A DNA stretch of 64,000 nt from a virus. Shown here one piece after another: positions 12,662 to 36,449 of the stretch. A program made the translations under genes and the position numbers. Numbering within the stretch: the stretch's first letter is position 1; every line of letters starts with the position of its first letter. The notes under the pieces are model-generated. The model searched no databases. It had not been told where the DNA came from and worked only from the letters and a program-made list of their open reading frames with translations. The stretch covers positions 1-64,000 of the IMG/VR virus record IMGVR_UViG_3300047320_000132. The stretch is one strand, 5' to 3'.

Positions 12662-12934
12662 TTAAGGAGTGTCGTTCTTAAAGTACTCGGCTACTTTACG
12701 AGGAGTTGTAAGTTTGTGATGATCGCCAGGTTTGATTTTTCCAAATCTGCTTTCTATAGCCGTTACCAGTTTATTAGCCGCAATTGTTGTAGCAGCTTTG
12801 TTTTCACGATTTTTAGGGAAGAATTTATGGTCGGGCTTCATGCTTGAATCGAAGTGCTTGTGAGTCAGGTCCATAACGATTCCTAATGCACTGTCATCAG
12901 AAAGTTCGGCTATTTTTTCAAGATACTTATTCAT
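12662..12934 (-). CDS. Small head protein with MNKYLEKIA tag
   Basis: A 90-residue protein starting MNKYLEKIAELSDDSALG, the N-terminal tag shared by at least nine proteins here. The remainder is basic and helical (HKFFPKNRENKAATTIAANK). By analogy with T4 internal proteins, the tag could target it into the prohead before cleavage. No ribosome site is visible; a TAAAATA motif ends only 5 bases before the ATG, so the mRNA may be leaderless. Function beyond the tag is unknown. Confidence 0.7.
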   Translation of the reverse strand: MNKYLEKIAELSDDSALGIVMDLTHKHFDSSMKPDHKFFPKNRENKAATTIAANKLVTAIESRFGKIKPGDHHKLTTPRKVAEYFKNDTP

Positions 12935-12939
12935 GGTGT

Positions 12940-12946
12940 TATTTTA
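12940..12946 (-). promoter_or_regulatory. TAAAATA late-type promoter
   Basis: Reads TTTTAAAATAACACCATG on -: five bases separate the motif from the start codon, suggesting a very short or absent leader. Confidence 0.45.
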
Positions 12947-12971
12947 AAAGCAAAAGCCTCCCGAAGGAGGC
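12942..12971 (-). terminator. Terminator of the upstream late unit
   Basis: GCCTCC-TTCG-GGAGGC hairpin on - followed by TTTTGCTTTT; its T run merges with the next promoter. Confidence 0.75.
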
Positions 12972-12994
12972 CTTGTATTTGAATCGTTTATACA

Positions 12995-13444
12995 TTACCA
13001 CACGGGCATGATGGCCAAATCACTTGATACATGACCCCAACCACTTTCCATGTTCAGATTAATCTTCAGCTTAGTAGCTGCTTCCATAAACTGTTGCTGA
13101 AAGTTAGCCGCCAGGCTTTGATACAACTGGGTACGTTCTTCAATAGGGATTTGTAATCCGCCATCGCTATACTCCATTGTATTACGAGCCAACAGCAAAG
13201 CTTTACCGTTGTATGCATGCCAGAGAGTTCCCCACAGAAGCACAGCTTTTGAAGGGAAGTTCTGAATACCCATATTACCCATAGGTGGGATAGAATTAAA
13301 CGAATCAGCTGCGAAGGTCATGCAAAGTTCAATGAAGGTATCCGTCATTTCCTCACCTTCAATAAGGTAATTGTTGTCAGCATAGTCTGACGTATATTCT
13401 CTCACTTCTTGTGCAGTGAGGACTTGAGGCATTGACACCGACAT
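12995..13444 (-). CDS. Head-tail connector candidate
   Basis: A 149-residue protein, mostly helical (LWGTLWHAYNGKALLLARNT; QLYQSLAANFQQQFMEAATK), ending in a Trp-rich stretch (GWGHVSSDLAIMPVW). Gene order places it between head-associated genes and neck genes, where head-completion proteins are encoded. It ends at a strong terminator. No specific family recognised; assignment is by context. Confidence 0.55.
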   Translation of the reverse strand: MSVSMPQVLTAQEVREYTSDYADNNYLIEGEEMTDTFIELCMTFAADSFNSIPPMGNMGIQNFPSKAVLLWGTLWHAYNGKALLLARNTMEYSDGGLQIPIEERTQLYQSLAANFQQQFMEAATKLKINLNMESGWGHVSSDLAIMPVW

Positions 13445-13448
13445 TTAA

Positions 13449-13895
13449 TTACTCCGCAGCGTCTGCTGCCTTATCTGCCGCCTTGCGGCCCTTCTTTGCT
13501 ACGCCATTTGCTTCTTCTGCAGTCTTACCAATTGCTACCGAAACTGCTTCACCTGACTTTTCTATTTCTGCGTTACGGCCAATTGATTCCGTACGTGAAG
13601 TGCTCTCTTTCGGAGCGTCAGTTGACTCTTTTAGTTCATCGGCAGTCATACCGCGATACGAGTCCACTTCGATAATCGGAGTCGGGGCTTTAGGCAACGA
13701 GCTTACGTCCGGTTCCGACGAATGGACTTCAGCCCATTCTTTGTTAACTGCGTCGATCACATCTGGATGTTCCAGATCCGATTCCATGATTTTGGCGTAG
13801 CCGCCAACCTTGATTGAAATGTAACCCGCTTTCAGAACCAGACCGGTAGCCAGTTTGTTAACGAGGTAAAAATTCTTGAATACGACTTTTGACAT
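13449..13895 (-). CDS. Unknown late protein with low-complexity tail
   Basis: A 148-residue protein. The first 55 residues look folded (VLKAGYISIKVGGYAKIM, then an acidic DLEHPDVIDAVN). The last 80 are polar and low-complexity, ending in a lysine/alanine helix (KKGRKAADKAADAAE). Gap to the downstream gene is only 4 bases, so they are co-transcribed. Possibly a head or neck accessory protein. Confidence 0.55.
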   Translation of the reverse strand: MSKVVFKNFYLVNKLATGLVLKAGYISIKVGGYAKIMESDLEHPDVIDAVNKEWAEVHSSEPDVSSLPKAPTPIIEVDSYRGMTADELKESTDAPKESTSRTESIGRNAEIEKSGEAVSVAIGKTAEEANGVAKKGRKAADKAADAAE

Positions 13896-13924
13896 TTGTC
13901 ATTCCTTTCTTAAGAGTTTGTAGT

Positions 13925-14233
13925 TTATTGCTTATTGTACATTTTGTCAATTCTGGCCAGAATCTTATTGTTCTGATATTGCATGTATTTATGCAAGCCT
14001 AGAAGACCGCCAGTCAAAGCAACACCTCCACCAACGCCAAGTTTTACACGATTCTGAAATGTCCTGCCATTGCTGACCTTTGCCTTACGCGAGGCGCGGG
14101 TAGCCGTTAGACCTGTGACTTTAGCTTCATTAAGCACACGTGCCTTCGTAGCCCATTCTTTGGACGTTTTGCCATGTACCGAATCTAGCATGTTAATAGT
14201 CTTGGATAGGTATCTATTAAATTTACCTGCCAT
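13925..14233 (-). CDS. Small basic protein, tag-like N-terminus
   Basis: A 102-residue protein from ATG 14,233, chosen because AGGAAAC and a late-type promoter stand just upstream; the frame is open further to 14,404 but crosses that promoter. It begins MAGKFNRYLSKTINMLDS, where NRYLSKTINML resembles the NKYLEKIA tag in diverged form. It is very basic in the middle and has a glycine-rich hydrophobic segment near residues 70-82 (LGVGGGVALTGGLLGLH), like the tagged head proteins at 16,568 and 18,047. Function unknown; probably packaged. Confidence 0.6.
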   Translation of the reverse strand: MAGKFNRYLSKTINMLDSVHGKTSKEWATKARVLNEAKVTGLTATRASRKAKVSNGRTFQNRVKLGVGGGVALTGGLLGLHKYMQYQNNKILARIDKMYNKQ

Positions 14234-14258
14234 GTTGGTTTCCTGTAATTTACAGACG

Positions 14259-14265
14259 TATTTTA
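14259..14265 (-). promoter_or_regulatory. TAAAATA late-type promoter
   Basis: CTGTTAAAATACGTCTG on -, 25 bases upstream of the ATG at 14,233: the clearest promoter-leader-ribosome-site arrangement of this class. Confidence 0.6.
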
Positions 14266-14289
14266 ACAGAGAAGACGAACCAATGAAAT

Positions 14290-14298
14290 TGGTATAAG
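14290..14298 (+). promoter_or_regulatory. TGGTATAAG early-type promoter
   Basis: AATTGGTATAAGAAGTATAG, divergent from the late-type promoter 25 bases to its left: the two classes stand back to back. Confidence 0.7.
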
Positions 14299-14342
14299 AA
14301 GTATAGAAACACCCGTAGTCTATAACTCTTCCAGGAGAGACC

Positions 14343-14612
14343 ATGAAGATTAGCGAGATGACAAACTTTGTAAGCAGAGCGCCTTGGCCTATGGTCGTGT
14401 CCATAGACAGGTGGGGGGAGAAAGATCCAGAGATAAAGAGGAAGATAGTAGCGGTAGATCGTGCGTTGAGTATGAACTACGGGGATAAAGTTGTAAAGGC
14501 ATTGTTAGAAGAGTTGTTTGACTATGTAGAAAAACGGTATCTGGTAAATAGAAAACAGATGGAATCTAAAGTAGTTATGTTCCTGGCTGACAATAGGAAG
14601 AAATCAGCGTGA
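14343..14612 (+). CDS. Small unknown protein
   Basis: An 89-residue protein after CCAGGAGAGACC, a strong ribosome site, 44 bases from an early-type promoter. It is helical and charged (KVVKALLEELFDYVEKRYLV) with a tryptophan-containing N-terminal third (APWPMVVSIDRWGEKDPEIK). First gene of a three-gene + strand cassette embedded in the late - strand block. Not recognised. Confidence 0.65.
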   Translation: MKISEMTNFVSRAPWPMVVSIDRWGEKDPEIKRKIVAVDRALSMNYGDKVVKALLEELFDYVEKRYLVNRKQMESKVVMFLADNRKKSA

Positions 14613-14621
14613 GAGACCCGT

Positions 14622-14653
14622 CCCGGCTAGTACAGCGGGATTGCCTTTTACAA
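14622..14653 (+). terminator. Weak terminator-like hairpin
   Basis: CCCG-GCTAGTACAG-CGGG then ATTGCCTTTT; the loop matches that of nearby terminators but the T run is offset. May be partial, letting the next two genes be read. Confidence 0.4.
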
Positions 14654-14671
14654 GTAAATAAGGAGAGTATT

Positions 14672-14800
14672 ATGACTGACGAGAAAAGTGGGGATCACAG
14701 CGTTTTGATGGGTATTCTCGGAATCATATTGCTAGTTGCTTTATTCGGCAGGAAAGAAGAGAAAAAAGATGAAGACAATAAATCCTCGACACCTAAATAA
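14672..14800 (+). CDS. 42-aa single-span membrane protein
   Basis: ATG at 14,672 follows AAGGAGAGTATT and encodes 42 residues. Residues 11-26 (VLMGILGIILLVALFG) form one membrane span; the tail is strongly charged (RKEEKKDEDNKSS) and should face the cytosol. Overlap-free, 10 bases before the next gene. Unknown function. Confidence 0.6.
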   Translation: MTDEKSGDHSVLMGILGIILLVALFGRKEEKKDEDNKSSTPK

Positions 14801-14810
14801 AGGAGGAGGT

Positions 14811-14978
14811 ATGCTGACGCAAGAAGATATGAGAGATATTCGTCAGACGGTTGCCGAAGAAAATACAAAGGCTTTTGCCGCAGGGCTCATTTCAGGAACA
14901 CTCTTACTTTGCATAAGTATTATTACCCTTGCGTACTTGGACTCCAGAAATACAAGAGCGATAATTACACGACTCTAG
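14811..14978 (+). CDS. 55-aa single-span membrane protein
   Basis: ATG 14,811 stands right after AGGAGGAGGT. The 55 residues comprise a polar N-terminus (LTQEDMRDIRQTVAEENTK) and one membrane span near residues 24-43 (GLISGTLLLCISIITLAYL), with a basic end. With the preceding 42-aa protein it forms a pair of small membrane proteins of unknown function. Confidence 0.6.
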   Translation: MLTQEDMRDIRQTVAEENTKAFAAGLISGTLLLCISIITLAYLDSRNTRAIITRL

Positions 14979-14993
14979 TAAGCAGGGGAAAGT

Positions 14994-15017
14994 CCCGCTA
15001 GTACAGTGGGCTTTTTT
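14994..15017 (+). terminator. Terminator of the + cassette
   Basis: CCCGC-TAGTACA-GTGGG followed by CTTTTTT; same loop family as 6,700. Confidence 0.7.
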
Positions 15018-15033
15018 AGCTTCCAGAAATGAG

Positions 15034-15057
15034 AAAAGCCAGGCATTTAACCTGGCT
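15034..15057 (-). terminator. Terminator after the capsid gene
   Basis: AGCCAGG/CCTGGCT stem followed on - by TTTTCTC; ends the capsid transcript against the convergent + cassette. Confidence 0.7.
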
Positions 15058-15104
15058 CGTCTTAGATAGGACCACCTCCTCTCGAAGGCTTCCAAACACT
15101 GGGT

Positions 15105-15998
15105 TTAGAAGTTTAGAACAACTGCACCGTTCACGTTACCGATACCTGCACCTACAGCTTCGTATGCGTGGAATTCGATAATGTCTGCTTCAGTCTTCAG
15201 GAAGACCGTAGGAGCTTGCAACTCATAGAACTGACCTAGGTAGTTCTGCGGAGCAAACACAAGTGCTTGGTTCGTCGGGAGGATGTTAGCCTTGTTCGTC
15301 GTGATGATCTTGTAACCGAAGAACGTATCGAGCGTACCTTCACCACGGAACAGATCCGAAGCGGCAGGCGAACCCACGTCAGTTGCGGCAAAAGTCAGCA
15401 GATCAGCATACATCGATTGCGTCATAAGGATACAACCAACCGGCAGCTTATTCAGAAGCATGAACTTAATACCAGCCATCAGGTTAGCTTTCGTGAAGCC
15501 ACCACCGATGGTGTGAACATTGCTGTTCGCCGTAGCGATTGACAGAATGTTGTTGTAAAAGTTTACGTCTTCTTGCTCTTGGATATCCTTAACGCTGTTT
15601 TCCTGCAGGATCGTGCGAATGTCGGTACGATACGTAGCGAGTTCGAACTTGCTCTTGCGGAAATCTTGCGACATGATCTTTTGGAAAGTCACCGGATAAC
15701 GTGAAGTTTTCCAATAACGAATTTCCGGACGGCCCAGGAACGGAGCAGTAGCTGCAACCGAATCCGGTTCTTTTTCAACGATAACCGTCGGTTCTTCCGT
15801 CAGTTGGCGATCCAGCTCTGAAGCTGTGATTTGAACCGGAGTAAGAATCTTACGGGTAAAGCCGTCTTCACGAAGCTTCTGACGTACGAAAGCTGACATA
15901 GCAGCTGAAGCTTCTTTAGTGTGACCTTGGTCAATCTTGTCGAGGAAAGATTGATTCAGGAATTGTACGTTTACGGTTTCTGTCGAATATGCGCTCAT
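15105..15998 (-). CDS. Major capsid protein candidate
   Basis: A 297-residue protein downstream of the protease, scaffold-like and decoration candidates, the standard capsid position. Features fit HK97-fold capsids: an N-terminal helical region, an E-loop-like stretch (EIRYWKTSRYPVTFQKIM), a spine helix (NSVKDIQEQEDVNFYNNILS) and a P-domain end (ILPTNQALVFAPQNYLGQFY). Near residue 27 HTKEAS matches the hydrophobic-x-K-x-A-S pattern repeated in head-core proteins, so an N-terminal piece may be removed during maturation. It is short for a jumbo phage capsid protein. Identification rests on context and fold-like pattern. Confidence 0.7.
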   Translation of the reverse strand: MSAYSTETVNVQFLNQSFLDKIDQGHTKEASAAMSAFVRQKLREDGFTRKILTPVQITASELDRQLTEEPTVIVEKEPDSVAATAPFLGRPEIRYWKTSRYPVTFQKIMSQDFRKSKFELATYRTDIRTILQENSVKDIQEQEDVNFYNNILSIATANSNVHTIGGGFTKANLMAGIKFMLLNKLPVGCILMTQSMYADLLTFAATDVGSPAASDLFRGEGTLDTFFGYKIITTNKANILPTNQALVFAPQNYLGQFYELQAPTVFLKTEADIIEFHAYEAVGAGIGNVNGAVVLNF

Positions 15999-16012
15999 TT
16001 TAATTATCCCTA

Positions 16013-16435
16013 TTACGCTACTTTGATTGTAAGGTGAGCGGTTTCCGTCGTAGCAGCAGCCACAACGTCAAGTACGAAACCAATAACCGGGTCAGTAGTA
16101 CCGTTAGCAAGTGCCAGTTGACCACTCTTCACCGTCAGCGGCGAGCCAGGAGCATAAGCACCAGCTGCATAGTTCGAAACTTTAGCCAGGAAGTTACCCC
16201 AAAGAACAACTGCCTTACCTGCATACGCTGCCGAACCACTATCACCATTACCGACGATTACCAGGCCTACATTGTTTGACGCCGACGCACCGGTTTTATT
16301 AACAGTGTTATCGCTCTGTTTGGTAACCCAGTCACCATTTTGCAGAGTAGCAGCAGCTGTAATCGGTTCGACGCGCTCTAGAGAACCATCGTACGGCCAG
16401 CCACGGATGATCTCTGCGTTACGTTCCATTAACAT
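16013..16435 (-). CDS. Capsid decoration protein candidate
   Basis: A 140-residue protein, 14 bases upstream of the capsid gene and in the same operon. Composition is Ala/Gly/Val/Thr-rich with beta strands (NVGLVIVGNGDSGSAAYAGK, AVVLWGNFLAKV), similar to lambda gpD-type decoration proteins that stabilise the capsid. Start may be ATG 16,435 or 16,429. A late-type promoter lies 87 bases upstream, with a hairpin (16,470-16,499) in the leader. Assigned by context and composition. Confidence 0.55.
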   Translation of the reverse strand: MLMERNAEIIRGWPYDGSLERVEPITAAATLQNGDWVTKQSDNTVNKTGASASNNVGLVIVGNGDSGSAAYAGKAVVLWGNFLAKVSNYAAGAYAPGSPLTVKSGQLALANGTTDPVIGFVLDVVAAATTETAHLTIKVA

Positions 16436-16567: not shown

Positions 16568-17026
16568 TTAGTAATAACTCTGTGAGTTATTGCTTGAAGA
16601 AACTCCTTTAACTACAGCTCCTGTCAAAGCAGCTCCCCCGAGGGCGAGACCAACTTTATTACGGGCTTTAGTCGTTTTAAGCTCAGCTTGATCGATAGCT
16701 GGTTGGAGACTGTTAGCGTGAGCCTGAAGCTTGCTAGCGCGGTTTGCATTATGGGATGCGATGTCTTGGTTCAAAGGACGGGCAGAAGCTCCGTAAACGC
16801 GTCTAGAAGCGTCACCACCCCTATTATCCGCAAGACTCTTGAATACGTTCGCCTTGGCGGTTGCTCTATCAGCTAAAGAAGCTGTTCGAGATTGCGTTGT
16901 AGAAAGACCCTTAAATTCAGCGCCTGTCGCATCTTTAAGAACACCAGGAACAGTTTTAGCTACATTTTTAGCTGCCCCGATAATCCCTGCGATACCTGCG
17001 ATCTTTTCGAGGTATTTATTCATCAT
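16568..17026 (-). CDS. Head protein with MNKYLEKIA tag
   Basis: A 152-residue protein that begins MMNKYLEKIAGIAGIIGAAK; the second ATG (17,023) gives the exact tag. The middle is alanine/arginine-rich and helical (SLADRATAKANVFKSLADNR). A hydrophobic glycine/alanine segment lies near residues 125-140 (KVGLALGGAALTGAVVKGVS), shared in type with other tagged small proteins. Starts within a few bases of the preceding stop, so coupled. Likely an internal head protein. Ends well before the capsid promoter. Confidence 0.65.
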   Translation of the reverse strand: MMNKYLEKIAGIAGIIGAAKNVAKTVPGVLKDATGAEFKGLSTTQSRTASLADRATAKANVFKSLADNRGGDASRRVYGASARPLNQDIASHNANRASKLQAHANSLQPAIDQAELKTTKARNKVGLALGGAALTGAVVKGVSSSNNSQSYY

Positions 17027-17027: not shown

Positions 17028-17624
17028 TTAACTCAGCATGAATTCAAGAAGTGGGTCGGTCTTAGGACGTGCTACACCTACTCCATTACCCATACCCCAC
17101 GGTTCTTCGATAGCCGATGCAACCTTCATCAGAAGCTCAGGTGAAACGCTTTGTAGTTCAGCAAGGTCTGCTTGGGTAAACTGGGCAGCAGAAGCAATTT
17201 TGTTAAGCTGTTCAGGCATATGAGTCACAGCTTCGATATGATCGAGTTCTGACTGATGTACGGAAGCTTGTTTTTCGATATCGCCCTTAAGGCCAGCGAT
17301 TTGCGTTTCAAGAGCTTCGATGTATTCAGCAGCCTTCTGCAGGAGTTCCACAGTAGGGTTCGATTCATCTGGAAGTGCAAAGCTCGTAAGTTCGGAAATG
17401 TTGAGGTTAGCAGCCTTGACCAGTTTCACAGCGTCTTCAGGGTCAATGCCTTTCATGGTCAAAGCTGAAGCGGCTTCTTTTTCCATGATGTGCTGAGCTA
17501 CTTGATAACGTGCGTCTTTATCGCTATAGCCAGCTTGTTTAAGATGTTCTACAGCAACTGCTTCCGGGGTCGAAAGACGAACGTCTTCCGCGTGTTGCAT
17601 AAGAATTGAGGATAGTTTAGTCAT
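17028..17624 (-). CDS. Helical head-core protein with KxA motifs
   Basis: A 198-residue protein. ATG 17,624 is chosen because it overlaps the previous gene's end by 8 bases with a purine-rich site; the frame is open to 17,705. It is helical and partly coiled coil (EYIEALETQIAGLKGDIEKQ). It contains at least five copies of the hydrophobic-x-K-x-A pattern: IMEKEAAS, LLQKAAE, IEKQASV, LNKIASA and LMKVASA. This matches the scaffold-like and protease proteins nearby and suggests an internal core protein processed in maturation. Unrecognised by family. Confidence 0.6.
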   Translation of the reverse strand: MTKLSSILMQHAEDVRLSTPEAVAVEHLKQAGYSDKDARYQVAQHIMEKEAASALTMKGIDPEDAVKLVKAANLNISELTSFALPDESNPTVELLQKAAEYIEALETQIAGLKGDIEKQASVHQSELDHIEAVTHMPEQLNKIASAAQFTQADLAELQSVSPELLMKVASAIEEPWGMGNGVGVARPKTDPLLEFMLS

Positions 17625-18069
17625 TTTCGTCTTCACTGTGGACTCTGCTGAATCCAGCATTTTCGAGTCGTCTATTGTAATCTTTGGTGTTAGCGATACG
17701 GGCACCGAGACCTAGTCCAAGCACTGCACCGAGAAACTTATTCTTGAAAAGCCGTGACTTTCCAATATTTGTCAGTCTTGATGCGTGAGTTGCAATGGAC
17801 GGATCCAAATGCGCATTTGCAGCGGTACTAGCCAAATAAGGAAGCATAGTTGCCTTCGTATAAAAATGGCCTGCCGTTCCGCCTAGCGTAGCTCCACCTA
17901 GAGCCCAAGCCGCAGTTTGAACCGGATGGATGCCTTCTGCATTTTCAAGTTTTGCAAACTCTTCCCGATTCAAATGGAGCTTATCGACACCATACCAACT
18001 CTTATCATCTGGGTGCGGAGCCATCGCATACGACTCAGCTACCTTCTCAAGATACTTGTTTTTCGACAT
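17617..18069 (-). CDS. Head protein with NKYLEKVA tag
   Basis: A 150-residue protein beginning MSKNKYLEKVAESYAM, a tag variant with two extra N-terminal residues and V for I. It has two hydrophobic Gly/Ala segments (WALGGATLGGTAGHFY near residue 55 and FLGAVLGLGLGARIAN near 113) and an acidic end. Starts inside the end of the upstream tagged gene (23-base overlap). Likely packaged; function unknown. Confidence 0.65.
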   Translation of the reverse strand: MSKNKYLEKVAESYAMAPHPDDKSWYGVDKLHLNREEFAKLENAEGIHPVQTAAWALGGATLGGTAGHFYTKATMLPYLASTAANAHLDPSIATHASRLTNIGKSRLFKNKFLGAVLGLGLGARIANTKDYNRRLENAGFSRVHSEDEND

Positions 18070-18457
18070 GTTTGTTGATCGCTTTATTTAGTTTAACACC
18101 GGCGTAATCAGCAGCCAAACTTGTAGCGCCAGTCAATGCCAAAAGTTTTGCATTATGCATATGTCCTGCACCTTCCCCTATAATTTTGGGAGAGAGTTTT
18201 TGCACTCCAAAACCTGTACCTGCACCGATACCTCCGATTATTCCAGTATCAATAGCGTCGTGTTTCCAATTAGATTCCTGTTCTTGAGCAGCTTTATGTA
18301 ATGCTGCGCTAAGAAGAGTTTTATCCCCGCGAACTAATTTTGAACCTGGTGAAACAACTTTAGATGGTTTCGCAACTTTGCCAAGTCTTGCGCCGACTCC
18401 CTTGGATGCCAAATTCGGAAAAGTCATTCCTGCAATTTTTTCCAAATACTTATTCAA
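18047..18457 (-). CDS. Head protein with MNKYLEKIA tag
   Basis: A 136-residue protein beginning MNKYLEKIAGMTFPNLAS. The N-terminal third is basic (GKVAKPSKVVSPGSKLVRGD). A glycine-rich hydrophobic segment near residues 70-85 (TGIIGGIGAGTGFGV) and another near 110 (ALTGATSLAADYAG) follow. GGAG stands 13 bases upstream of the start, just past the terminator of the scaffold-like gene. Its end overlaps the next tagged gene. Likely injected or internal head protein by tag analogy. Confidence 0.65.
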   Translation of the reverse strand: MNKYLEKIAGMTFPNLASKGVGARLGKVAKPSKVVSPGSKLVRGDKTLLSAALHKAAQEQESNWKHDAIDTGIIGGIGAGTGFGVQKLSPKIIGEGAGHMHNAKLLALTGATSLAADYAGVKLNKAINKHVEKQVS

Positions 18458-18531: not shown

Positions 18532-19791
18532 TTAATAGCCGTACAGTTCGTTCGATTTAGCGTTAACCATTTCGATTGCGCTGTCGAAATCAACGCCGTT
18601 AGCGATGAGCATATCGAGAGCAGCCTTCTTTTCACGGCCAACAGCGTATGCACCAGCAGCACCGGCAGCAGCAGCGCCAGCACCCAGATGAACAGCCTTG
18701 TTGTTAGCCAGAGCCTTGAACGAGCCTTGGGTAGCTTGGGCCTTAACGCGGTTAGCGTCAAACGCTACGCCATTAGCAGTCTTCTTAGCAGCACGGCCTA
18801 CATGTTCAGCAGTCGTTGCAGCCTTACGGGCAGCACGAGTTGCTGCACCACCACCGACCGAACGTGCAGCTTCGTTAAGCATCTTTGCAGCGCCAGAAGC
18901 AGCAGCAACCTTCGTAAGCTCAACAGCTTGGTCGAAATCAAAACCAGCAGCTAGGAACGAGTCAAAAGCGGCTTGCTTGACTTGCGTTTCTTCTTCTTGT
19001 TCGAGTTCAAACGCAGCTTCTTTAACCAGGTTCACAGCGGCGTCGAAGTCGAAGCCTTGGCTAACGAGTTCAGAAACAGCTGCAGCCTTTTCTTGTTGGT
19101 CAGCATCGACCCAACCCGTAACACCACCTTGGTTAGGAGTCTGAGCAGCAACTTGTGCGCCTTCTTCCTTAGCAATGCCAGCAGCGGGGTTTTGATCAAC
19201 CGGAGCAGCACCATGAGCCATAGCATCTGAAACGATTGCATCGAAAATTTGGTTGATAGTACCACCATTACCACGACCATCCGTACCCGGTTGGTTTTGG
19301 ATAATGCTATCTTGTTCTGCTACTTGAGCAGCCAGGTCTACCTGGGTCTTGTTCGGAACACCACTGGCAATGCCATTCATGGTGTTTTGGTCACCGACTG
19401 AAGCCAGCTTCTCAAGAAGAGCTTCGGCCAGAGCCTTACCTGCGTCAGCAGCTTGTTTGTTCATAGTATCCTCTGTATTAACTTGATCAAGTTTAATGGA
19501 TGCAACTTTTTGCATTACTTCTTTAGCCAAGGCGGCACCTTTTGCAGCTGCTTCCTTAGTTTGTTCGTCGTCTTTCTTCTTGTCGTCTTTTTGTTCGACG
19601 GCATTTTCTTTCTTAGCAGCTTGGTCGGCTTTGCAAGCAGTATCTAGTTCTTCATCTGCTTTACAAACTGCCGTCTCGGCTTTTTCTTCATCTTTCTTTT
19701 CATCCTTCTCTGACTTTTCGCTGGCGGACTTAGTAAGACCGGCGCTTTTTTCAAGATCCTGGATGAGATCATCAAGACTTAGATTCATCAT
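18532..19791 (-). CDS. Prohead core/scaffold-like protein
   Basis: A 419-residue protein, very rich in A, K, E and D with long helices, directly downstream of the protease and upstream of the capsid: the profile of a scaffolding or core protein. It opens MMNLSLDDLIQDLEKSAGLT and then has a low-complexity charged stretch (residues 25-75). The pattern hydrophobic-x-K-x-A-[AS] recurs: LTKSAS, MQKVAS, MNKQAA, LEKLAS, VKEAAF, VKQAAF, TKVAAA. Two related modules (GFDFDAAVNLVKEAA; GFDFDQAVELTKVAA) and a third near the C-terminus (GVDFDSAIEMVNAKS) form an internal repeat. Probably removed or cleaved during maturation. Confidence 0.65.
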   Translation of the reverse strand: MMNLSLDDLIQDLEKSAGLTKSASEKSEKDEKKDEEKAETAVCKADEELDTACKADQAAKKENAVEQKDDKKKDDEQTKEAAAKGAALAKEVMQKVASIKLDQVNTEDTMNKQAADAGKALAEALLEKLASVGDQNTMNGIASGVPNKTQVDLAAQVAEQDSIIQNQPGTDGRGNGGTINQIFDAIVSDAMAHGAAPVDQNPAAGIAKEEGAQVAAQTPNQGGVTGWVDADQQEKAAAVSELVSQGFDFDAAVNLVKEAAFELEQEEETQVKQAAFDSFLAAGFDFDQAVELTKVAAASGAAKMLNEAARSVGGGAATRAARKAATTAEHVGRAAKKTANGVAFDANRVKAQATQGSFKALANNKAVHLGAGAAAAGAAGAYAVGREKKAALDMLIANGVDFDSAIEMVNAKSNELYGY

Positions 19792-19853: not shown

Positions 19854-21359
19854 CTATTTATTCTGAATCAACTTTAGCATTGCCGACTTGGCTAATTTGT
19901 AAGTCAATTTGTAGTCAGAAGCAGATTTAACTAAAGGTATTTTAACACCATCTGAAAGCTTGTTCAATTCCTGCTCTTTCATTTTCTTCTCAATTACTTG
20001 AGTAATGAACCACTTTGCAGCGAGAGCAGCACCGCCGATTGCTACGATGGCATTGAACACACGCAAGAGTTCAGACTTTTGTGGAGCGTTAGCCAGATTC
20101 TGTTCTCTGAACCTTTCATAAACCGTCGGTTCGATATGATGACCATTTCCGCTGTACCCTACGTTTGTACCTTGCATATATCCATACATCGATGCTTGCT
20201 TATTCATAGCTACACGGCTTTCTACATAATCCGGCAGATACGAAGAATCTTCCATGTGTGGAAGAAGCGCATGCACAATTCCTATATTAGGTTCTGTAAT
20301 TTCACCGAAGTCACGATCAAAGTCCATCAGTGCAGAAGTACCTGATTTATTCACATAAGCAGCAGCCATAGGGCCGATGCCCTTAGCTTCGTCACCGAGG
20401 ATCTTGCGACCAATCAGTTCTGCCAGAAAACCCAATGAAGGGCTAATACCAAGATGACCCAAGGTGCTAAGAACTTCATTAAGCTTATAGTTTCTAAGAA
20501 CGTCGATAACGTCACCTTTCGGATCAGAAACTCGTGATACAAGATTATCAAAACTAGGATCAGCAGATACAACATCACCATCGACCTCTTTTAGTAATTC
20601 TGATAGCTTCTTTAACGACGCGGCTTTGTGCATCGTAATTTCAGATAGGCCAGCCATCATGGCTTCATCTACAGAACCAACAACTTCAGCTGTTGATGCA
20701 ACTTTCTGTAGAACAGAACTCGTTACGTCGGCAGGGCGGAATACGATAGAGATATCGAAGAATCTAAGCGGAGCCAGATTCAACGCCATAACCTTGCGGC
20801 CATCTGGATAAATTCTGCCAAGCTGTTCGCTCAAGTGTTCACAATACTCTTCACGAGTCTTAGCCTTGTTACTGCAAATACTGCAAACGTCGAATGGAGT
20901 ACGGCAAGCCATAGAAGTCTTAGGCCAATCACCGCTTTCGATCTTGTCGACGATGTCAGGGGCCTTGTCATTCCACAGTTCGGCAATAAGCTCAACACGA
21001 TGCATTCTATCGTTATAAACGGAATAGATAACACGCCCGATAGCAATTTCAGGGTTCTTGTTTACGTGGTTGCGGAAGATATGGGCGGGTGAAGTCTCAA
21101 AGGTATTGTGATAATCAATGAGATTCGATTCAGGGAAATAGTCTGCGTTACGGTTGGCACCATAGAATTCACCCGCGCCCATAGCGAGGATGTGCAGATA
21201 TGTCTTTCCATGAATAGGAGTGATTTTGGATGCGAATTGTTGAATACGAGAATCCGCAGCCTGTTTGATGAGACTGCCTGTAAGGTCTCTGTTGTCAAGA
21301 ATCGTAACCTGGGGTTCGTCTTGGTAAAAAGAAGAGGTATCGATCAGTTTTGTTAGCAT
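19854..21359 (-). CDS. Prohead maturation protease candidate
   Basis: A 501-residue protein. Its first 230 residues fit the HK97/S78-like head protease group: MGAGEFYGANRNADYFPESN, then FRNHVNKNPEIAIGRV with a candidate catalytic His, and GDWPKTSMACRTPFDVC with a candidate Ser, followed by LAPLRFFDISIVFRPA. A Cys cluster (CSICSNKAKTREEYCEH) may bind zinc. The C-terminal half is helical with repeats of the KxA pattern (LQKVAST, MHKAASL, MNKQASM, LVKSASD), suggesting self-cleavage. It would cut core and capsid proteins. TAAAATA ends 5 bases before the ATG, as at 12,934. Confidence 0.75.
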   Translation of the reverse strand: MLTKLIDTSSFYQDEPQVTILDNRDLTGSLIKQAADSRIQQFASKITPIHGKTYLHILAMGAGEFYGANRNADYFPESNLIDYHNTFETSPAHIFRNHVNKNPEIAIGRVIYSVYNDRMHRVELIAELWNDKAPDIVDKIESGDWPKTSMACRTPFDVCSICSNKAKTREEYCEHLSEQLGRIYPDGRKVMALNLAPLRFFDISIVFRPADVTSSVLQKVASTAEVVGSVDEAMMAGLSEITMHKAASLKKLSELLKEVDGDVVSADPSFDNLVSRVSDPKGDVIDVLRNYKLNEVLSTLGHLGISPSLGFLAELIGRKILGDEAKGIGPMAAAYVNKSGTSALMDFDRDFGEITEPNIGIVHALLPHMEDSSYLPDYVESRVAMNKQASMYGYMQGTNVGYSGNGHHIEPTVYERFREQNLANAPQKSELLRVFNAIVAIGGAALAAKWFITQVIEKKMKEQELNKLSDGVKIPLVKSASDYKLTYKLAKSAMLKLIQNK

Positions 21360-21385: not shown

Positions 21386-21706
21386 TTAAATACGAATGTA
21401 TTTATTTTTGGTACCAGCAGCTTTCTCTTGTTCGGGCAACTTAACGTGAACATTAACGCTCTGTCGTTTCTTCAAAGCCTCTGCGATATCTTTCAATTGA
21501 TCTAAAGATTTACTTTCCACATCCGCCATGTGATTTCCTCGATGTTTGCTCTCTATACCATTGGCTAGATTCGCAACACCTAGCCCAAGACCGGTAGCAG
21601 ACATACCTAGACCAATCTTGGAGGTTGTTGAACTTCTCTTCCAGCCTTTAGCGAAGCTCTTTCCGAACTCACTTAGACTGGCAATTTTCTCTAGGTATTT
21701 ATTCAT
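21386..21706 (-). CDS. Small head protein with MNKYLEKIA tag
   Basis: A 106-residue protein beginning MNKYLEKIASLSEFGKSF. A glycine-rich hydrophobic segment lies at residues 31-45 (KIGLGMSATGLGLGVA) and the C-terminus is charged, basic and lysine-rich (LPEQEKAAGTKNKYIRI). The start is 3 bases from the previous stop, so translation is coupled. Located directly before the protease gene. Likely an internal head protein. Confidence 0.65.
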   Translation of the reverse strand: MNKYLEKIASLSEFGKSFAKGWKRSSTTSKIGLGMSATGLGLGVANLANGIESKHRGNHMADVESKSLDQLKDIAEALKKRQSVNVHVKLPEQEKAAGTKNKYIRI

Positions 21707-21708: not shown

Positions 21709-22248
21709 TTAAACAAACGCTTTAGGATTAACCGAACCGTTGTCACGATAGCGGCCTTCAAGATCCGTAAGACTCTTAATAGTCATCAGATCGATACCGT
21801 CACCTTGAACTGCGTTCGTAAGGATAGATTGTAGCAGATTCGGATCCACTGCAACCAGCGGAGCAAATCTGTAAATCGTATCAGCATACTTTTCAACCTT
21901 AGCAGGGTTCTGATCACGAAGGAACGATGACGAAGCAACAGCATGTTGCAACGACTTAAGGAAGCGTTGGTATCTGAACTGATCCGTTACGAAACGATAA
22001 CCAATCATTGCACCGCCAACCGCACCATGAGAGACGATACCACCAATGCCCTTACCAAGTTGGCCAGCGATATTGTCTGTGAATTCACGACTGATGTCTT
22101 GCTCTGAACGTGGGTTAGCCGCTTCTTTTTCCAGAAGTGCTTCTTTTTCCATCAAAACATGAGTAATGAAGCCTGCTACGAATTGGTCAGCGAGATCTTC
22201 ATTGCCAGCGAATTTTTCAAGACCTAGCTCTTTAACTTTTTCTAACAT
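21709..22248 (-). CDS. Head-core protein
   Basis: A 179-residue protein. The N-terminus has LEKFAGNED and MEKEALLEKEAANPR, variants of the KxA pattern, and is coiled-coil-like. A glycine-rich segment follows (GKGIGGIVSHGAVGGAMIGY, residues 68-87), then a soluble helical domain. It sits in the protease/scaffold operon, 3 bases upstream of a tagged gene. No family recognised; probable head component. Confidence 0.6.
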   Translation of the reverse strand: MLEKVKELGLEKFAGNEDLADQFVAGFITHVLMEKEALLEKEAANPRSEQDISREFTDNIAGQLGKGIGGIVSHGAVGGAMIGYRFVTDQFRYQRFLKSLQHAVASSSFLRDQNPAKVEKYADTIYRFAPLVAVDPNLLQSILTNAVQGDGIDLMTIKSLTDLEGRYRDNGSVNPKAFV

Positions 22249-29432: not shown

Positions 29433-29915
29433 TTACGGCATGTCAGGCCAGTATCTGTTGTTCTTGATAACGTTGACAGATTTAGACAATATAGTTAAGT
29501 TCTGTTCACAATGTAGGCCGCATACCAATTTTGACTGTAAGGGTACGATGTGATCTACTTGCCAAAATTCCCCAGACAGTTTAGACCACGTTTTTGCACG
29601 AAGGTAGTAATCCTCAACTACTTTGGTATTTATCCATTTGGGAGTTGCTTTTTTATGAACAGCTCGTCTTTTAGCGTTAGCTGCAGCAAATTTTTCAGGA
29701 TGCGCCTTTCTGTACTTTAAACTCTGAAGCCTATCTGAGAGAATTCTCAATTCTAAATTGTTAAGCCTGTATTTTTTGCTGTATGCCGCAGATTTATCTT
29801 TTCTAATTTCTTTCAAACAAATTTTGCAATAATACTCATAGCCGTCTTTTTGGGCTTTATTTTTGTTGAACGATTCAAAAGGCTTGCTTTCTTTGCATTT
29901 GGAACATATCTTCAT
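29433..29915 (-). CDS. HNH endonuclease at the beta' break
   Basis: A 160-residue protein. N-terminal zinc pairs (MKICSKCKESKPF; YYCKICLKE), a basic helical middle, and the HNH core FWQVDHIVPLQSKLVCGLHC with NLTILSKSVNVIKNNR. It lies 35 bases upstream of the beta' C-terminal gene, exactly at the boundary where the + strand block interrupts the polymerase genes. Homing endonucleases are known to split phage genes, so this one may mark how beta' was broken. It differs in sequence from the HNH gene at 23,535. Confidence 0.85.
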   Translation of the reverse strand: MKICSKCKESKPFESFNKNKAQKDGYEYYCKICLKEIRKDKSAAYSKKYRLNNLELRILSDRLQSLKYRKAHPEKFAAANAKRRAVHKKATPKWINTKVVEDYYLRAKTWSKLSGEFWQVDHIVPLQSKLVCGLHCEQNLTILSKSVNVIKNNRYWPDMP

Positions 29916-32019: not shown

Positions 32020-33288
32020 ATGTTACAACCCAATGATGAATTCCTTTTCACCCGGCAACGTCACGAAGCTGATGTAATGGGCCTTCACTACGATCTCCGA
32101 CTAGTTCATGGAGATAAGGCGTACTCCTTCGCAACGCTCAAAGACATGCCTGGTCCAGGTGAAATCATTGCAGTCTACGAACAACCTGTTCATGACAGAG
32201 CGTATGCGCTAAGCAAGAAAGTGGTTATCCCTACTGGCCAATACGGTGCAGGTGTTACTCATTTAGATTGGGTTAGAAAAGCAATCGTAGCTCCACACAG
32301 TACAGAAACCTCGCTGGTTATATTCACCAAAGATGGTCAGAAGTTCCTGCTTAAGAAATCTCCGACTAAAGAAAATGAAAAATCGTGGATTTTCAGGAAC
32401 ATTACGGGAATGGGTAAAAGTCAGAACCCTTACCTTAAGAAAATAGAAGAAGGTATGGATAAACAAGCATCGTTTATCGGCGGTGCAATCGCTACTCACT
32501 TACTTCAAAATGTAGCTACGAATGTGGCTTTGGGAAAACGTCGTGTGTCACGCTATCTGGCCAATTCGTTTGCCCAAGGCGCTCACGGTGTCGTAGATAA
32601 TAGCATCAAGGCAAGAGCGCTGCGTACTGCACTTGGCGCAACCCTGCCGGATATCTCAGTGGCTCATAAGTCGATGCATGACTTAGGTCGTGCTGTAGGT
32701 GGACTTACTGCCCATGCAACTCCTCGCCAACGCGTAGCTGTTAGGATGCTTACGCAAGGTCGCTTCAACGATCTAAAAAAATACGATTTGCATAGAGACC
32801 CTGTAGTACAAGCAGTTCATAATCATGTCAGCAAACATCTCGGTCTGCCTTCGCTTGACCATGTTATGAGTAAAGCCGATGACGTGGCTAAGTTATGGAA
32901 AGATAAAACTCATCCGTTGCTTTCCAATATTGCAACCAATATTACGAAAGGTGCAAAACCACAGGGCAAGCATTTTGTACCGGGGCATCTTACTGCCAAA
33001 CCAGGTTTGACGGGCGCAGTTGCAAGCTTTGCTATCGATCCCGCTGCGGGTAGTTTAAACACAGCCAAAAATCTTATGGCTAGTAAAAAAGTGGCGAATA
33101 ACAAGTACGGTAAGAAAGTGGTTGATATGTTGAATAATCAATTTATCAAGAAACCGATTAAAGCTGGAGTGGAATCTGAAGGTCGTATTTCACAGCTAAA
33201 AAATAAGGCGTACAAGTTAGGGGTTAACCCTCTTTCAGCTCATCTAAAAAGAACATCGTCGGCGTTAACCGATGTTCTCAAGGATTAA
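32020..33288 (+). CDS. LigD-type 3'-phosphoesterase domain protein
   Basis: A 422-residue protein. Residues about 10-95 match the phosphoesterase (PE) domain of bacterial ligase D: FTRQRHEADVMGLHYDLRLV (with the HYDLRL metal-site signature), DMPGPGE, HDRAYA, and IPTGQYGAGV. PE domains trim 3'-phosphates or ribonucleotides at breaks. About residue 138, NPYLKKIEEGMDKQASFIGG resembles the packaging tag and KxA pattern. The remaining 270 residues are basic and helical, unrecognised. It opens the cluster followed by an SF2 ATPase and a ligase. No Ku protein is visible. Confidence 0.8.
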   Translation: MLQPNDEFLFTRQRHEADVMGLHYDLRLVHGDKAYSFATLKDMPGPGEIIAVYEQPVHDRAYALSKKVVIPTGQYGAGVTHLDWVRKAIVAPHSTETSLVIFTKDGQKFLLKKSPTKENEKSWIFRNITGMGKSQNPYLKKIEEGMDKQASFIGGAIATHLLQNVATNVALGKRRVSRYLANSFAQGAHGVVDNSIKARALRTALGATLPDISVAHKSMHDLGRAVGGLTAHATPRQRVAVRMLTQGRFNDLKKYDLHRDPVVQAVHNHVSKHLGLPSLDHVMSKADDVAKLWKDKTHPLLSNIATNITKGAKPQGKHFVPGHLTAKPGLTGAVASFAIDPAAGSLNTAKNLMASKKVANNKYGKKVVDMLNNQFIKKPIKAGVESEGRISQLKNKAYKLGVNPLSAHLKRTSSALTDVLKD

Positions 33289-33368: not shown

Positions 33369-33393
33369 GATAACCTCCAGGTTTAGTACATTA

Positions 33394-33402
33394 CTTATAC
33401 CA
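33394..33402 (-). promoter_or_regulatory. TGGTATAAG early-type promoter on -
   Basis: The only - strand copy of the class seen: TTGGTATAAGTAATGTACT, 25 bases before the 27-aa peptide gene. Confidence 0.6.
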
Positions 33403-33419
33403 ATTTAGCACATAGGCAA

Positions 33420-34877
33420 ATGAATAAGTATCTAGAAAAAATAGCCCGGAAGCAGAAAAGCGATCTTCGTCCAAATCAGATTGACGCACTTGAGCATCTT
33501 GAAAAAGAGAAAGGTGTTGTCCTTCATCATAGCCTTGGTAGTGGCAAGACAAAAACGTTCCTTAAAGCGGTGGAACATTACCAGAACGAAAATCCGAAGA
33601 AACGAGCATTGGTTATCGCCCCGGCGAGCCTTGTTACTAACGTTGACAAGGAATTGCTCAAGCACAAGATCAACCTTGACAAGAATAGGCTTGACGTCAT
33701 GAGCTACGAGAAGGCAGTAAACGAAGCTCATAATCTTCGCAAGAACGATTATTCGATCGTAGTTGCCGACGAGGCTCACAGACTTCGCAATACGAATACT
33801 AAACGTACCAAAGAGCTTCGTGACATTATCAGCGGAGCGGATCGACGTCTTCTAGCTACCGCTACGGGTAACTACAATAAGCTGTCTGATATTTCAGCGC
33901 TCGTTAACATCGCTGCTAATGACGATGTTCTTCCTGAAGATTCTAAGAAGATGGAAGAGCGTTACACTAAGGACGAAATTGTCAAGCCTGGGTTTAAAGA
34001 ACGGCTTCTTGGTGCTAAACCTGAAGCTGTTAAAACACTTGACCGTCGTAAGGAACTTAAAGAAGCGCTTCAGCGGTATGTGAGCTATTACGATAGCAAG
34101 GATGATCCTGAAGCCAAAGATCATTTCCCTTCCAAGACTGAAAAGAACGTGGATGTAGAAATGTCCCCGGAACAGTTGAAGTATTACAAGTTTACTGAAG
34201 GTAAGATTCCGTTCCTGCTCAGAATGAAGATTCGTCACAACCTTCCGTTGGACAAGAAAGAGAAGTCGAGTCTCAATGCTTTCTCGACAGGCGTGAGACA
34301 GGTTTCCAACGGCTACAAGCACCTCAAGGCTGATGGCAAGGGTGAGTACTCACCTAAGATCCAAAAGGCCGTAGCGAGCCTCCAGGACGGTCTGAAGACG
34401 GATAAGAACTTCAAGGCTCTCGTATATTCAAACTATCTTGATGCGGGTCTGAAGGATTACTCTAAACGACTGCAGGAACTGAAAATTGACCATGCTATTT
34501 ACGACGGCTCCCTTTCACGTAAAGAAAAGGATGAATTGGTTAAACAGTACAACTCTGGTAAGAAGAAAATTTTGTTGATTTCTTCATCTGGTTCAGAAGG
34601 ACTTGACAGTAAAGGCACCAAGCGTGTACAAATTCTTGAGCCTCACTTTAACAAGAGCAAAATCAATCAAGTAGTTGGCCGTGCGGTTCGGTTCGGAAGC
34701 CATGACCATTTACCCAAAGAAGAACGCAAAGTAGAAGTTGAGCATTTTCACAGCGTACATCCTAAGCCGCTTTGGGGTAAGACGCCGTACAGTATCGACA
34801 AGTATCTGTCAGAGAATTCTGATACGAAGCAGGACCTGTTTGACGAAGTTAAAGATTTGATGAAGAAAGATGACTAA
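33420..34877 (+). CDS. SF2 (SNF2-like) ATPase with packaging-type tag
   Basis: A 485-residue protein beginning MNKYLEKIARKQKSDLRPNQ: the tag runs straight into the Q-type start of a helicase core (LRPNQIDALEHL). Motif I is HHSLGSGKTKT, motif II VVADEAHRLRN, motif III ATATGN; the second RecA domain has LVYSNYLDAGLKDYSKRLQE, SSSGSEGLDSKG (motif V) and INQVVGRAVRFGSHDHLP (motif VI). It would translocate on or remodel DNA using ATP. The tag suggests packaging into the head for injection. No ribosome site is evident; a late-type motif lies far upstream (31,956). It forms an operon with two more tagged genes. Confidence 0.88.
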   Translation: MNKYLEKIARKQKSDLRPNQIDALEHLEKEKGVVLHHSLGSGKTKTFLKAVEHYQNENPKKRALVIAPASLVTNVDKELLKHKINLDKNRLDVMSYEKAVNEAHNLRKNDYSIVVADEAHRLRNTNTKRTKELRDIISGADRRLLATATGNYNKLSDISALVNIAANDDVLPEDSKKMEERYTKDEIVKPGFKERLLGAKPEAVKTLDRRKELKEALQRYVSYYDSKDDPEAKDHFPSKTEKNVDVEMSPEQLKYYKFTEGKIPFLLRMKIRHNLPLDKKEKSSLNAFSTGVRQVSNGYKHLKADGKGEYSPKIQKAVASLQDGLKTDKNFKALVYSNYLDAGLKDYSKRLQELKIDHAIYDGSLSRKEKDELVKQYNSGKKKILLISSSGSEGLDSKGTKRVQILEPHFNKSKINQVVGRAVRFGSHDHLPKEERKVEVEHFHSVHPKPLWGKTPYSIDKYLSENSDTKQDLFDEVKDLMKKDD

Positions 34878-35088
34878 TAAATACCTAACCAAAATTGCTT
34901 CTGACCTAGCTACGGCAGAGAAGAACGAAAAAGACGAAAACGATGATGTAAACAAGTATTCGGAAGAATTGAAGAAAGCCAGAAATCCGAAACTCGTCGC
35001 AGCGTTGAAGTTTGCGTTACCAGAAGAAAAACAACACAGGGCTAAATTTGAGGCTGCTGTTGCAGCTATCAAACAAAGAGATCACTGA
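34870..35088 (+). CDS. Small charged protein with tag variant
   Basis: A 72-residue protein beginning MTNKYLTKIASDLATAEKNE. It overlaps the ATPase gene by 8 bases and shares its stop region with the next gene (TGATG type), so all three are translated together. It is almost entirely charged helix (KDENDDVNKYSEELKKARNP), likely coiled coil. Function unknown; the tag and operon suggest an accessory of the packaged enzymes. Confidence 0.65.
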   Translation: MTNKYLTKIASDLATAEKNEKDENDDVNKYSEELKKARNPKLVAALKFALPEEKQHRAKFEAAVAAIKQRDH

Positions 35089-36449
35089 TGAACAAGTACC
35101 TAGAAAAAGTAGCAACCGAACTTAAGGAACCAGCTAGCCCTGAGGGGCTTGGCTTTGACTTGTCTAAGGGCGATGAAAAGGAACTGTATAAATGGCTTAC
35201 AGCGGTGACTCTTTTTTCTAGACCTATTCAGCGTTCTGTAGCAGGTATGGCTGCAAAACATATGGCAGAACAGGGGTTCCACTCACCTGAAGCTGTTGAA
35301 TCAGCTGGTTGGGAAAATCTTCGTGACAACCTGGTCAAAGGACATTATGGCCGATTTGATGAATCCACAGCTACGACGATGCTTGCACAAGCAAGGCATC
35401 TAAAAGAGAAATACGGAACGATTGGTAATCTTATCGATAGCCGTACGCCTGAAGAGATTCGTGCTGAAATTCAAACGTTCCGTGGAATCGGTCCACTTGG
35501 AAGTCAGCTATTTGTCGAAGGTGTCAATCCGTATCTGGGTCAAATTCAAAAGCAAGCCTCTGCTGAAAACTATCAACGTCACAAATACGTTGAAGGTGAT
35601 TGGACTAAGCTTGAGCATCCAGTTGCATCAAAGAAATGGGACGGCGCTCACTTTATTTTGACAGTTCAGCCTGACGCTTCTCTTACGTTTCACTCACGTA
35701 GAGAGAGCGTTAAAGGCGGATACCCGGAGCGTTCTTCACAATTGCCTCACCTTGCAAAGCAGATGCCTGACTATATCGGTAATCAATTTGCAGTAGAACT
35801 TGTGCATACCGGACTTGCTAAATCCGAAACGGAATCACATCCGACGGTTTCAGGTATTCTGAATTCGCTTGCACCTCGTGCAATTGCAACTCAAGCTGAG
35901 AAGGGTCCAGTTAGAGCCGTGCTTATCGATGTCAAGAATCCCGATCTTGCTACATACAAGGATAAGATTGAGTACATCAAGAAATTCGAAAAGGATTTTG
36001 GAAATAACGAAGTGATGTTTGCACCTCACCTTGAACATGGCGTTGAGAATATCAACAAGTACCTCGACAAGATTAAAGGGGATAAAGGTGAAGGCTTGAT
36101 TGTTGCTGACTACGAACAACCAGAAACAGAATCAGTACGATACAAAGTTAAAAACTATGTGACATATAATCTGAGAGCACAGGGTCAGCAGCAGGAAATC
36201 GACATTAAGGGAAATCCTAAAGATAGTATGGGAGCTTTGTATCTATACGATGCTTCAGGAAAAATGGTTGGAAAGGTTGGAACGGGGTTTGATAGAGAAA
36301 CACGAATCAATGCACGCAAGCATCCAGAGATGTTTGATGGAAAATTGATCCAGGTTAGAGCGTATCCGCCAAGCGTACCGGGAGGCCAGATAAGATTCCC
36401 GGTCTATAACGGATTTGCTGATGGGGAAATTGACCGAGTCCATCTTTGA
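35088..36449 (+). CDS. HhH-GPD-like and ATP-dependent DNA ligase fusion
   Basis: A 453-residue protein beginning MNKYLEKVATELKEPASPEG. Residues about 30-155 resemble the endonuclease III/HhH-GPD fold of DNA glycosylases, ending in the hairpin FRGIGPLGSQLFVEGV. After IQKQASAEN (KxA pattern), residues about 180-340 hold ligase motifs: SKKWDGAHF (motif I KxDG), FAVELVHT (III-like), GEGLIVADYE (IV) and RYKVKNY (V, KxK); the C-terminal 90 residues fit an OB domain. It would recognise damage or nicks and seal DNA with ATP. The glycosylase catalytic residues were not verified. Confidence 0.85.
   Translation: MNKYLEKVATELKEPASPEGLGFDLSKGDEKELYKWLTAVTLFSRPIQRSVAGMAAKHMAEQGFHSPEAVESAGWENLRDNLVKGHYGRFDESTATTMLAQARHLKEKYGTIGNLIDSRTPEEIRAEIQTFRGIGPLGSQLFVEGVNPYLGQIQKQASAENYQRHKYVEGDWTKLEHPVASKKWDGAHFILTVQPDASLTFHSRRESVKGGYPERSSQLPHLAKQMPDYIGNQFAVELVHTGLAKSETESHPTVSGILNSLAPRAIATQAEKGPVRAVLIDVKNPDLATYKDKIEYIKKFEKDFGNNEVMFAPHLEHGVENINKYLDKIKGDKGEGLIVADYEQPETESVRYKVKNYVTYNLRAQGQQQEIDIKGNPKDSMGALYLYDASGKMVGKVGTGFDRETRINARKHPEMFDGKLIQVRAYPPSVPGGQIRFPVYNGFADGEIDRVHL

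Follow-up and report, generated by a model that had tools for sequence, protein, structure and literature searches.

Why should nine unrelated proteins of one phage begin with the same nine residues? The question is raised by a 64,000-nucleotide stretch of viral DNA (the window; positions 1 to 64,000 of the 131,100-base record IMGVR_UViG_3300047320_000132, which is related to Salmonella phage Arash), in which the sequence MNKYLEKIA, or a close variant of it, opens nine proteins. We consider it likely that this tag serves as a short N-terminal propeptide, guiding the protein that bears it into the phage head during assembly and then being cut off. Head targeting had been suggested by the original prediction, and the comparative evidence supports it as the best reading, with packaging and cleavage as the steps that we infer. 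We favor a removable head-targeting sequence because the tag ends in the motif that fills the head-core proteins, tags also lie at domain junctions, a sister lineage carries a tag of its own, the tag is restricted to one lineage, and orthologs of tagged proteins occur in Arash virions. The original account did not include the connection to the core proteins, the internal tags or the sister tag.

One N-terminus on many proteins

A six-frame search located all six predicted exact copies of NKYLEKIA and all three predicted variants. On the minus strand, MNKYLEKIA begins a 90-residue protein (12908-12934), a Gly/Ala-rich protein of 151-152 residues (16997-17023; an additional ATG lies one codon upstream, at 17026), a 106-residue protein (21680-21706) and a 53-residue basic peptide (23512-23538). 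The same strand encodes LNKYLEKIA, with TTG as its start codon, on a 136-residue protein (18431-18457), and MSKNKYLEKVA on a 150-residue protein (18037-18069) with weak glycine-zipper matches (E 0.013, below the cut-off). On the plus strand, MNKYLEKIA precedes the predicted SF2 ATPase, which proved to be an SNF2/SF2 helicase (33420-33446; Pfam 1e-19) and an ortholog of Arash virion protein gp217. MTNKYLTKIA begins a 72-residue rubrerythrin-like protein (34870-34899; Pfam E 6e-4, below the cut-off), and MNKYLEKVA (35088-35114) begins a protein in which an N-terminal domain, with a helix-hairpin-helix-like motif seen by eye only, is followed by an ATP-dependent DNA ligase (PHROG 114, 2e-16). Stripped of the tag, the nine proteins fell into nine different clusters, in keeping with the claim that the carriers are unrelated.

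Chance or artefact as the origin of the tag was ruled out by shuffling of N-termini, by the N-terminal placement of the tag and by its spread. Among the 91 predicted N-termini of the window, 34 pairs shared at least seven of nine residues, compared with 0, 0 and 0 pairs in three shuffled sets. With three substitutions allowed, no further N-terminal tag was found in the window or in the 63-131 kb part of the record. Synonymous codons were mixed at all eight tag positions of 46 exact tags, including six Leu codons and all four Ala codons; it is therefore the protein, and not the DNA, that is under conservation. An export or membrane signal peptide was rejected by inspection, as NKYLEKIA is charged and has no hydrophobic core. 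One further minus-strand protein of the window (13925-14233) has a tag-like start without the KxA end: it begins MAGKFNRYLSKTINML, and its near relatives begin FNKYLSKTLKML.

A search of related phages, named as a check by the original prediction, found the tag on many genes of relatives. We searched IMG/VR and 84,980 bacterial and archaeal genomes with a DNA pattern for NKYLEK[IVM]A, the degeneracy of which also admits NKYFEK. A site counted as N-terminal, by the same rule in both collections, when a start codon preceded it by one to four codons without an intervening stop. IMG/VR yielded 127 distinct sites in 55 contigs, and 108 of these sites, in 38 contigs, were N-terminal. The bacterial and archaeal genomes yielded 95 stretches, each with a single site; among the 80 listed, 11 were N-terminal, and 9 of these 11 start-like sites had more than 100 open codons upstream, compared with 6 of the 108 viral sites. 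Of the 38 tag-bearing viral contigs, 26 were tested for three genes of the window phage (E <= 0.001): the head protease was present in 22, the capsid protein in 23 and the RNA polymerase beta subunit in 20. The tested records missing one of these three genes were 15-85 kb in length. Judged by sequence, the tag marks one phage lineage.

A wider tag motif, applied to 12 records (some in part), gave 87 tags, 79 behind a near start codon and 8 others, in 84 open frames, three of which carry two tags. The highest count in a single record was 13. The sequences that follow the 87 tags formed 49 clusters, 36 of them singletons, so that one N-terminus is shared by unrelated proteins, as expected of a system like the capsid targeting sequence (CTS) of phage T4. 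By eye, the cargo includes small glycine-rich proteins and basic peptides of about 45-60 residues. T4 packages an ADP-ribosyltransferase, Alt, and relatives of the window phage likewise tag proteins that are ADP-ribosyltransferase-like by appearance only: a tagged protein of the related record G004 gave a weak PARP match (Pfam E 3e-4, below the cut-off), and a G006 protein with a YHGTS stretch gave no Pfam match. Such candidates were noted at L313:17172-18479 (minus strand; weak PARP match) and at L346:7457-8122 (plus strand; YHGTS stretch by eye, virion ortholog Arash gp96). A locus search with the helicase returned two identical copies only, and its orthologs were therefore taken from the relatives' records. 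As an unfused protein, the helicase bears the tag at its N-terminus in the window, in G002 and in G006, and variants of the tag in G001 and G012.

The KxA motif of the head core

The window tags sit within the head gene cluster or 4-16 kb away from it, and the proteins of this cluster share a feature with the tag. In 20 minus-strand proteins between 12.6 and 27 kb, tags included, the residue pairs most above shuffles were L.K and K.A, followed by M.K, all at a spacing of two. With tags removed, eight untagged head proteins of the window contain 36 [LMIVF]xKxA sites, compared with 6.2 in shuffles, and eight Arash head proteins contain 37, compared with 4.9. Elsewhere the motif was not enriched: 60 other window proteins contain 10 sites (14.6 in shuffles), 235 other Arash proteins 57 (62.6) and the window cargo stripped of its tag 4 (3.7). 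None of seven control motifs rose above z 2.0 in the window and Arash core sets. KxA sites are found in core proteins at 22274-23374 (12 sites; ortholog of Arash gp220), 21709-22248 (4 sites; gp221), 18532-19791 (15 sites; gp223) and 17028-17705 (8 sites; gp225), and in a head-module protein at 24757-26712 (5 sites; gp218), all on the minus strand.

The excess recurs across the lineage. In each of the 14 genomes with all seven core orthologs, these proteins contain 32-39 sites, compared with 4.4-6.3 in shuffles and with 3-11 occurrences of the reversed motif. Their identity to the window proteins is 25-55% for Arash and Vibrio phage D69, 28-80% for most others and 53-95% for the near relative G014. 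Of 85 distinct tags, 53 have S, A, E or G directly after the motif, as do 54 of 73 core sites. The major capsid protein (15105-15998, minus strand; PHROG 2522, major head protein) has a single KEA, at residues 28-30, which does not vary among the eight aligned sequences, the most distant of them at 45% identity, and the head protease has KxA sites close to its own ends. The end of the tag, [LMIVF]xKxA, is thus the same as the motif that fills the head-core proteins. Because the tag ends in this motif, it is most likely a removable head-loading label. These features are as expected if cleavage by the head protease occurs at KxA: the core proteins would then be chopped, the capsid protein would lose about 30 residues and each cargo protein would be cut once.

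The candidate for the tag-removing enzyme is the head maturation protease encoded at 19854-21359 on the minus strand, an ortholog of Arash gp222 that matches PHROG 18299 (head maturation protease, E 2e-6); the phage thus has a head maturation protease, as would be expected of a CTS system. By tblastn, its relatives are in Bacillus phage G, in Rhodococcus phage E3 (annotated prohead protease) and in Gordonia phages, the annotations in E3 and the Gordonia phages being prohead or capsid maturation protease; 196 of the 216 matching records are named Mycobacterium phage. A search of the sequences of solved structures gave no credible match to the protease. For the capsid protein, the sole credible match was Bacillus phage G gp27 (E 7e-5), in which the cleavage site is not visible. 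The head module of the window keeps the Arash gene order of portal, RNA polymerase, further head proteins, protease, core proteins and capsid protein.

Internal tags, a sister tag and untagged relatives

Tags are also found as joints between domains that relatives encode as separate proteins. At 32020-33288 (plus strand), a LigD 3'-phosphoesterase-like domain (LigD_N 2.7e-6, just under the cut-off) forms one protein with an ortholog of gp100, a virion protein of Arash, with MDKQA at the junction (32455-32469). Directly before the gp100-like domain, this junction is a tag in G002 (NKYLDKVA) and in G006 (NEFLDKTA), and Arash gp100 opens with MEKQA at its very start. The protein that begins at 35088 has IQKQA ahead of its ligase domain (35544-35558, plus strand), where G003 has NKYLTKLA and a directly tagged ligase. 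In G003, G004 (two consecutive tags) and G014, a tag links the phosphoesterase-like domain to the helicase, and in G001 and G023 to a relative of the 34870 protein. There were 29 internal tags among 2,396 predicted genes, compared with 0-8 for eight altered patterns; some of these tags have an ATG just ahead and may be true starts. When all frames were considered, 14 of 31 internal tags had a second [LMIVF]xKx[AS] at most 16 residues upstream, compared with 12.8% of random stretches of the same proteins.

A sister lineage carries a different tag, MKYF[TEK]Kx[AS]. In G027 (the record of L019), whose capsid protein is 34% identical to that of the window, this sequence occurs at 19 gene starts (6136-16134 and 44620), 14 of which read MKYFTKxA; 18 of the genes form a single run and one lies close to the capsid gene. 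Among them, the gene at 8698 is orthologous to the tagged helicase (E 2e-80). The window and G027 tags have KY[LF]xKxA in common. Beyond G027, the MKYFTKxA pattern occurred once in each of seven other viral contigs. A fainter case was seen in Bacillus phage G (L377), where a few genes start with MK[RK]LIxK or near it, with or without xA (11937, 16055, 28218 and 39023; also 67732, 179184 on the minus strand and 446709); two of these read MKRLIxKxA. These starts are possibly a tag of the same kind.

In other relatives no common N-terminus was found. The comparison of N-termini singled out internal proteins IPII and IPIII in T4, which served as a positive control. A strict pattern search found no tag in Arash, and its 251 N-termini gave 10 pairs with at least six of nine residues identical, compared with 3-5 in shuffles, with no common sequence. 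No common N-terminus was found in the 43 of 187 kb of Vibrio phage D69 that were compared, and the parts compared of the distant records G028, G029, G031 and G032, about 58 kb of each, had 0-2 similar pairs and no common tag. Arash and D69 are nested among the tagged phages in the capsid tree, with weak support, and stand beside most of them in the protease tree; the trees do not decide between loss of the tag and its original absence in these two phages.

The RNA polymerase beta subunit of the window is 54% identical to that of Arash and 52% identical to those of Vibrio phages D69, D181 and D148. Arash gp206 is one protein, where the window has two separate genes, for the RNA polymerase beta subunit and a second part, with other genes between that are tail-fibre-like by eye (37419-38582, 38601-41538 and 41542-44919, minus strand). 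Two HNH/homing-endonuclease-like genes, also by eye, lie in the head and RNA polymerase region (23535-24062 and 29433-29915, minus strand). In a relative, the RNA polymerase beta frame contains two in-frame TGA codons (G001:C1:51301-54636, minus strand), which may reflect recoding, sequencing error or decay.

Proposed head loading and its alternatives

The closest likeness that we weighed is with T4, whose IPII and IPIII begin MKTYQEFIAEA. In an ungapped comparison with MNKYLEKIA, the residues M, Y, E, I and A agree, of nine positions. A match of four of the eight residues after Met also arose in 84 of 20,000 shuffled tags and in 8 of 3,498 other N-termini, two of those being tag variants. The resemblance is suggestive of like function and not of common origin. 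In both cases about ten N-terminal residues are common to otherwise different proteins, which are internal head proteins in T4 and are proposed to be so here. The window-lineage tag ends in KxA, whereas the T4 end motif is xxE, and packaging by the window lineage, unlike that by the T4 CTS, is deduced from sequence. The best reading is that the tag would function like the T4 CTS, with its own cleavage motif, with many more carriers, including helicase, ligase and phosphoesterase fusions, and with an internal use as a joint in fused proteins. The T4 CTS is described as bringing proteins to the core, being removed by gp21 and being able to load foreign proteins (PMC5694885, PMC3012670).

A second likeness is with phages SPN3US and phiKZ, in which the N-terminal propeptides of head proteins end at the motif of the phage protease. 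These propeptides are cut at one motif, with extra sites inside, and two diverged paralogs have identical first 15 residues (PMC5694885, PMC10052503). Six of the eight SPN3US N-terminal propeptides are 111-254 residues long and two are of 20 and 24 residues (PMC10052503), and the motif is AxE or SxE (PMC5694885). The difference is that the published descriptions, in the sections cited, contain no single short tag on many unrelated proteins. The window tags end in KxA, and neither AxE nor SxE was among the top twelve residue pairs of the head module, in which no dedicated search for them was made. A literature search found the string NKYLEKIA nowhere in print; most subscription journals were outside this search, and the T4 string MKTYQEF likewise went unmatched. 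A search that combined CTS with N-terminal tag returned nothing on the tag.

The mechanism that we infer for the tag would proceed as follows. The tag, probably a short amphipathic helix, would bind the prohead core (the scaffold) or be held there with the protease, and the shell would close around core and cargo. The head protease (19854-21359) would then cut after [LMIVF]-x-K-x-A, chopping the core proteins, removing about 30 residues of the capsid protein and freeing each cargo protein at the end of its tag. The cargo would remain in the head with the packaged DNA and later be injected. In fused proteins the tag, often behind a second KxA, would act as a cleavable joint.

Arash provides virion data for this scheme. 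It shares with the window phage the capsid protein, the protease, the KxA-rich core proteins and the RNA polymerase, and differs in having no shared N-terminal tag. Three cargo clusters have clear Arash orthologs, the helicase in gp217 (E 2e-146), the G006 protein in gp96 (2e-13) and the gp100-like domain in gp100 (4e-10); weak matches of cargo to other Arash proteins (E 0.006-0.04) were excluded from this count. As tabulated for Arash virions, gp217 was detected with 38 unique peptides (1148 spectra), gp96 with 15 (816) and gp100 with 9 (471) (PMC10585845). Table 2 of that paper counts 116 of 252 coding sequences as present in the virion (PMC10585845). Presence alone is thus modest evidence, and high counts are stronger.

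Several points weigh against a removable head-targeting tag. Virion data include no tagged protein, since Arash, the sole relative with mass spectrometry, has no shared tag; its gp217 helicase, gp96 and gp100 must therefore be packaged in another way, or through N-termini of their own. Nor has cleavage after KxA been observed, and Table 2 lists coverage of 100% for gp217, gp221 and gp223 and 98.84% for gp100, with no loss of N-termini (PMC10585845). These values settle nothing on N-termini because they look inflated. In the same table, gp177, of 360 residues, is given 100% coverage from 2 unique peptides (PMC10585845). The seven core proteins were chosen after the excess had been noticed in the window, and their replicates are orthologs and not wholly independent. 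The reversed motif is itself a little raised (z 2.1-2.6) in Arash, G004 and G014. In G027, where three of the seven core orthologs were found, the excess of KxA sites is small (9 sites, against 3.3). Of the 11 records in which the ligase was located, 8 encode it without a tag, and the tag is therefore gained or lost on a given enzyme. Predicted structures were unusable (mean pLDDT 36 for the protease and 41 for the tagged ligase). An enrichment of N-terminal [LMIVF]xKxA[ASGE] in Arash virion proteins (7 of 68, against 1 of 137 others) was set aside and left unused, as the control [LMIVF]xAxK gave identical counts.

The lack of an observed cut, together with Arash coverage in which the published table leaves no N-terminus missing, would also fit a tag that is never removed. 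The tag and the [LMIVF]xKxA stretches could be uncut binding motifs that dock on the inner face of the capsid, on the core or on the virion RNA polymerase, and the many copies of a single short motif in the core proteins suit such multivalent docking. We regard this as unlikely, though it is the first of the alternatives. The window capsid protein has a single site, near residue 30, placed like the end of a propeptide; the head protease has sites near its own ends; and tags stand at the joints of domains that are separate elsewhere, 14 of 31 internal tags having a second site in front. These joints would also suit a tag that is a processing signal only, activating its carriers or splitting fusions, with head entry by other contacts, and the packaging of an untagged helicase, gp96 and gp100 by Arash agrees with this. 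Such a role is less probable again, since most tags are N-terminal on unrelated and often small proteins, for which a nine-residue cut alone gains little, and N-x-Y ahead of KxA is also kept, though it lies outside the core motif.

Short shared N-terminal sequences can serve as sorting signals, and the tag might thus sort proteins elsewhere in the infected cell, for example to a phage nucleus-like compartment or a membrane. We think this very improbable given that the tag ends in the head-core motif, that three cargo families have virion orthologs and that the window tags lie in or near the head gene cluster. The placement of most tags at gene starts would suit a stretch conserved as DNA or RNA, such as a shared promoter, operator or translation start region; we give this next to no credence, and a DNA- or RNA-level element was ruled out by the mixed synonymous codons and by the in-frame tags inside genes.

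Removable head loading may extend beyond the window lineage. We judge the odds to be even that there is a general cargo code, in which large phages with this protease family use one short, lineage-specific address tag that ends in the motif of their own protease. Such a tag could be attached to any protein, or set as a self-clearing joint inside an enzyme fusion, and would thereby load the head with a varying kit of proteins for injection. The tags of such a code would be NKYLEKIA here, MKYFTKxA in the sister lineage and perhaps MKRLIxKxA in Bacillus phage G. The predicted kit would hold DNA-repair proteins, helicases, ADP-ribosyltransferase-like proteins and small membrane-active or DNA-binding proteins.

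The predicted cleavage motif of the head protease can be checked in mass spectra of an existing isolate, Arash, and the tag, if it acts as proposed, would offer an easy means of bringing foreign proteins into phage heads. The proteins that phages inject act first in infection and are hard to recognise from sequence. If our reading is true, dozens of unknown genes would be named as head cargo, and the tag would list the injected proteins of an uncultured phage lineage directly from sequence.

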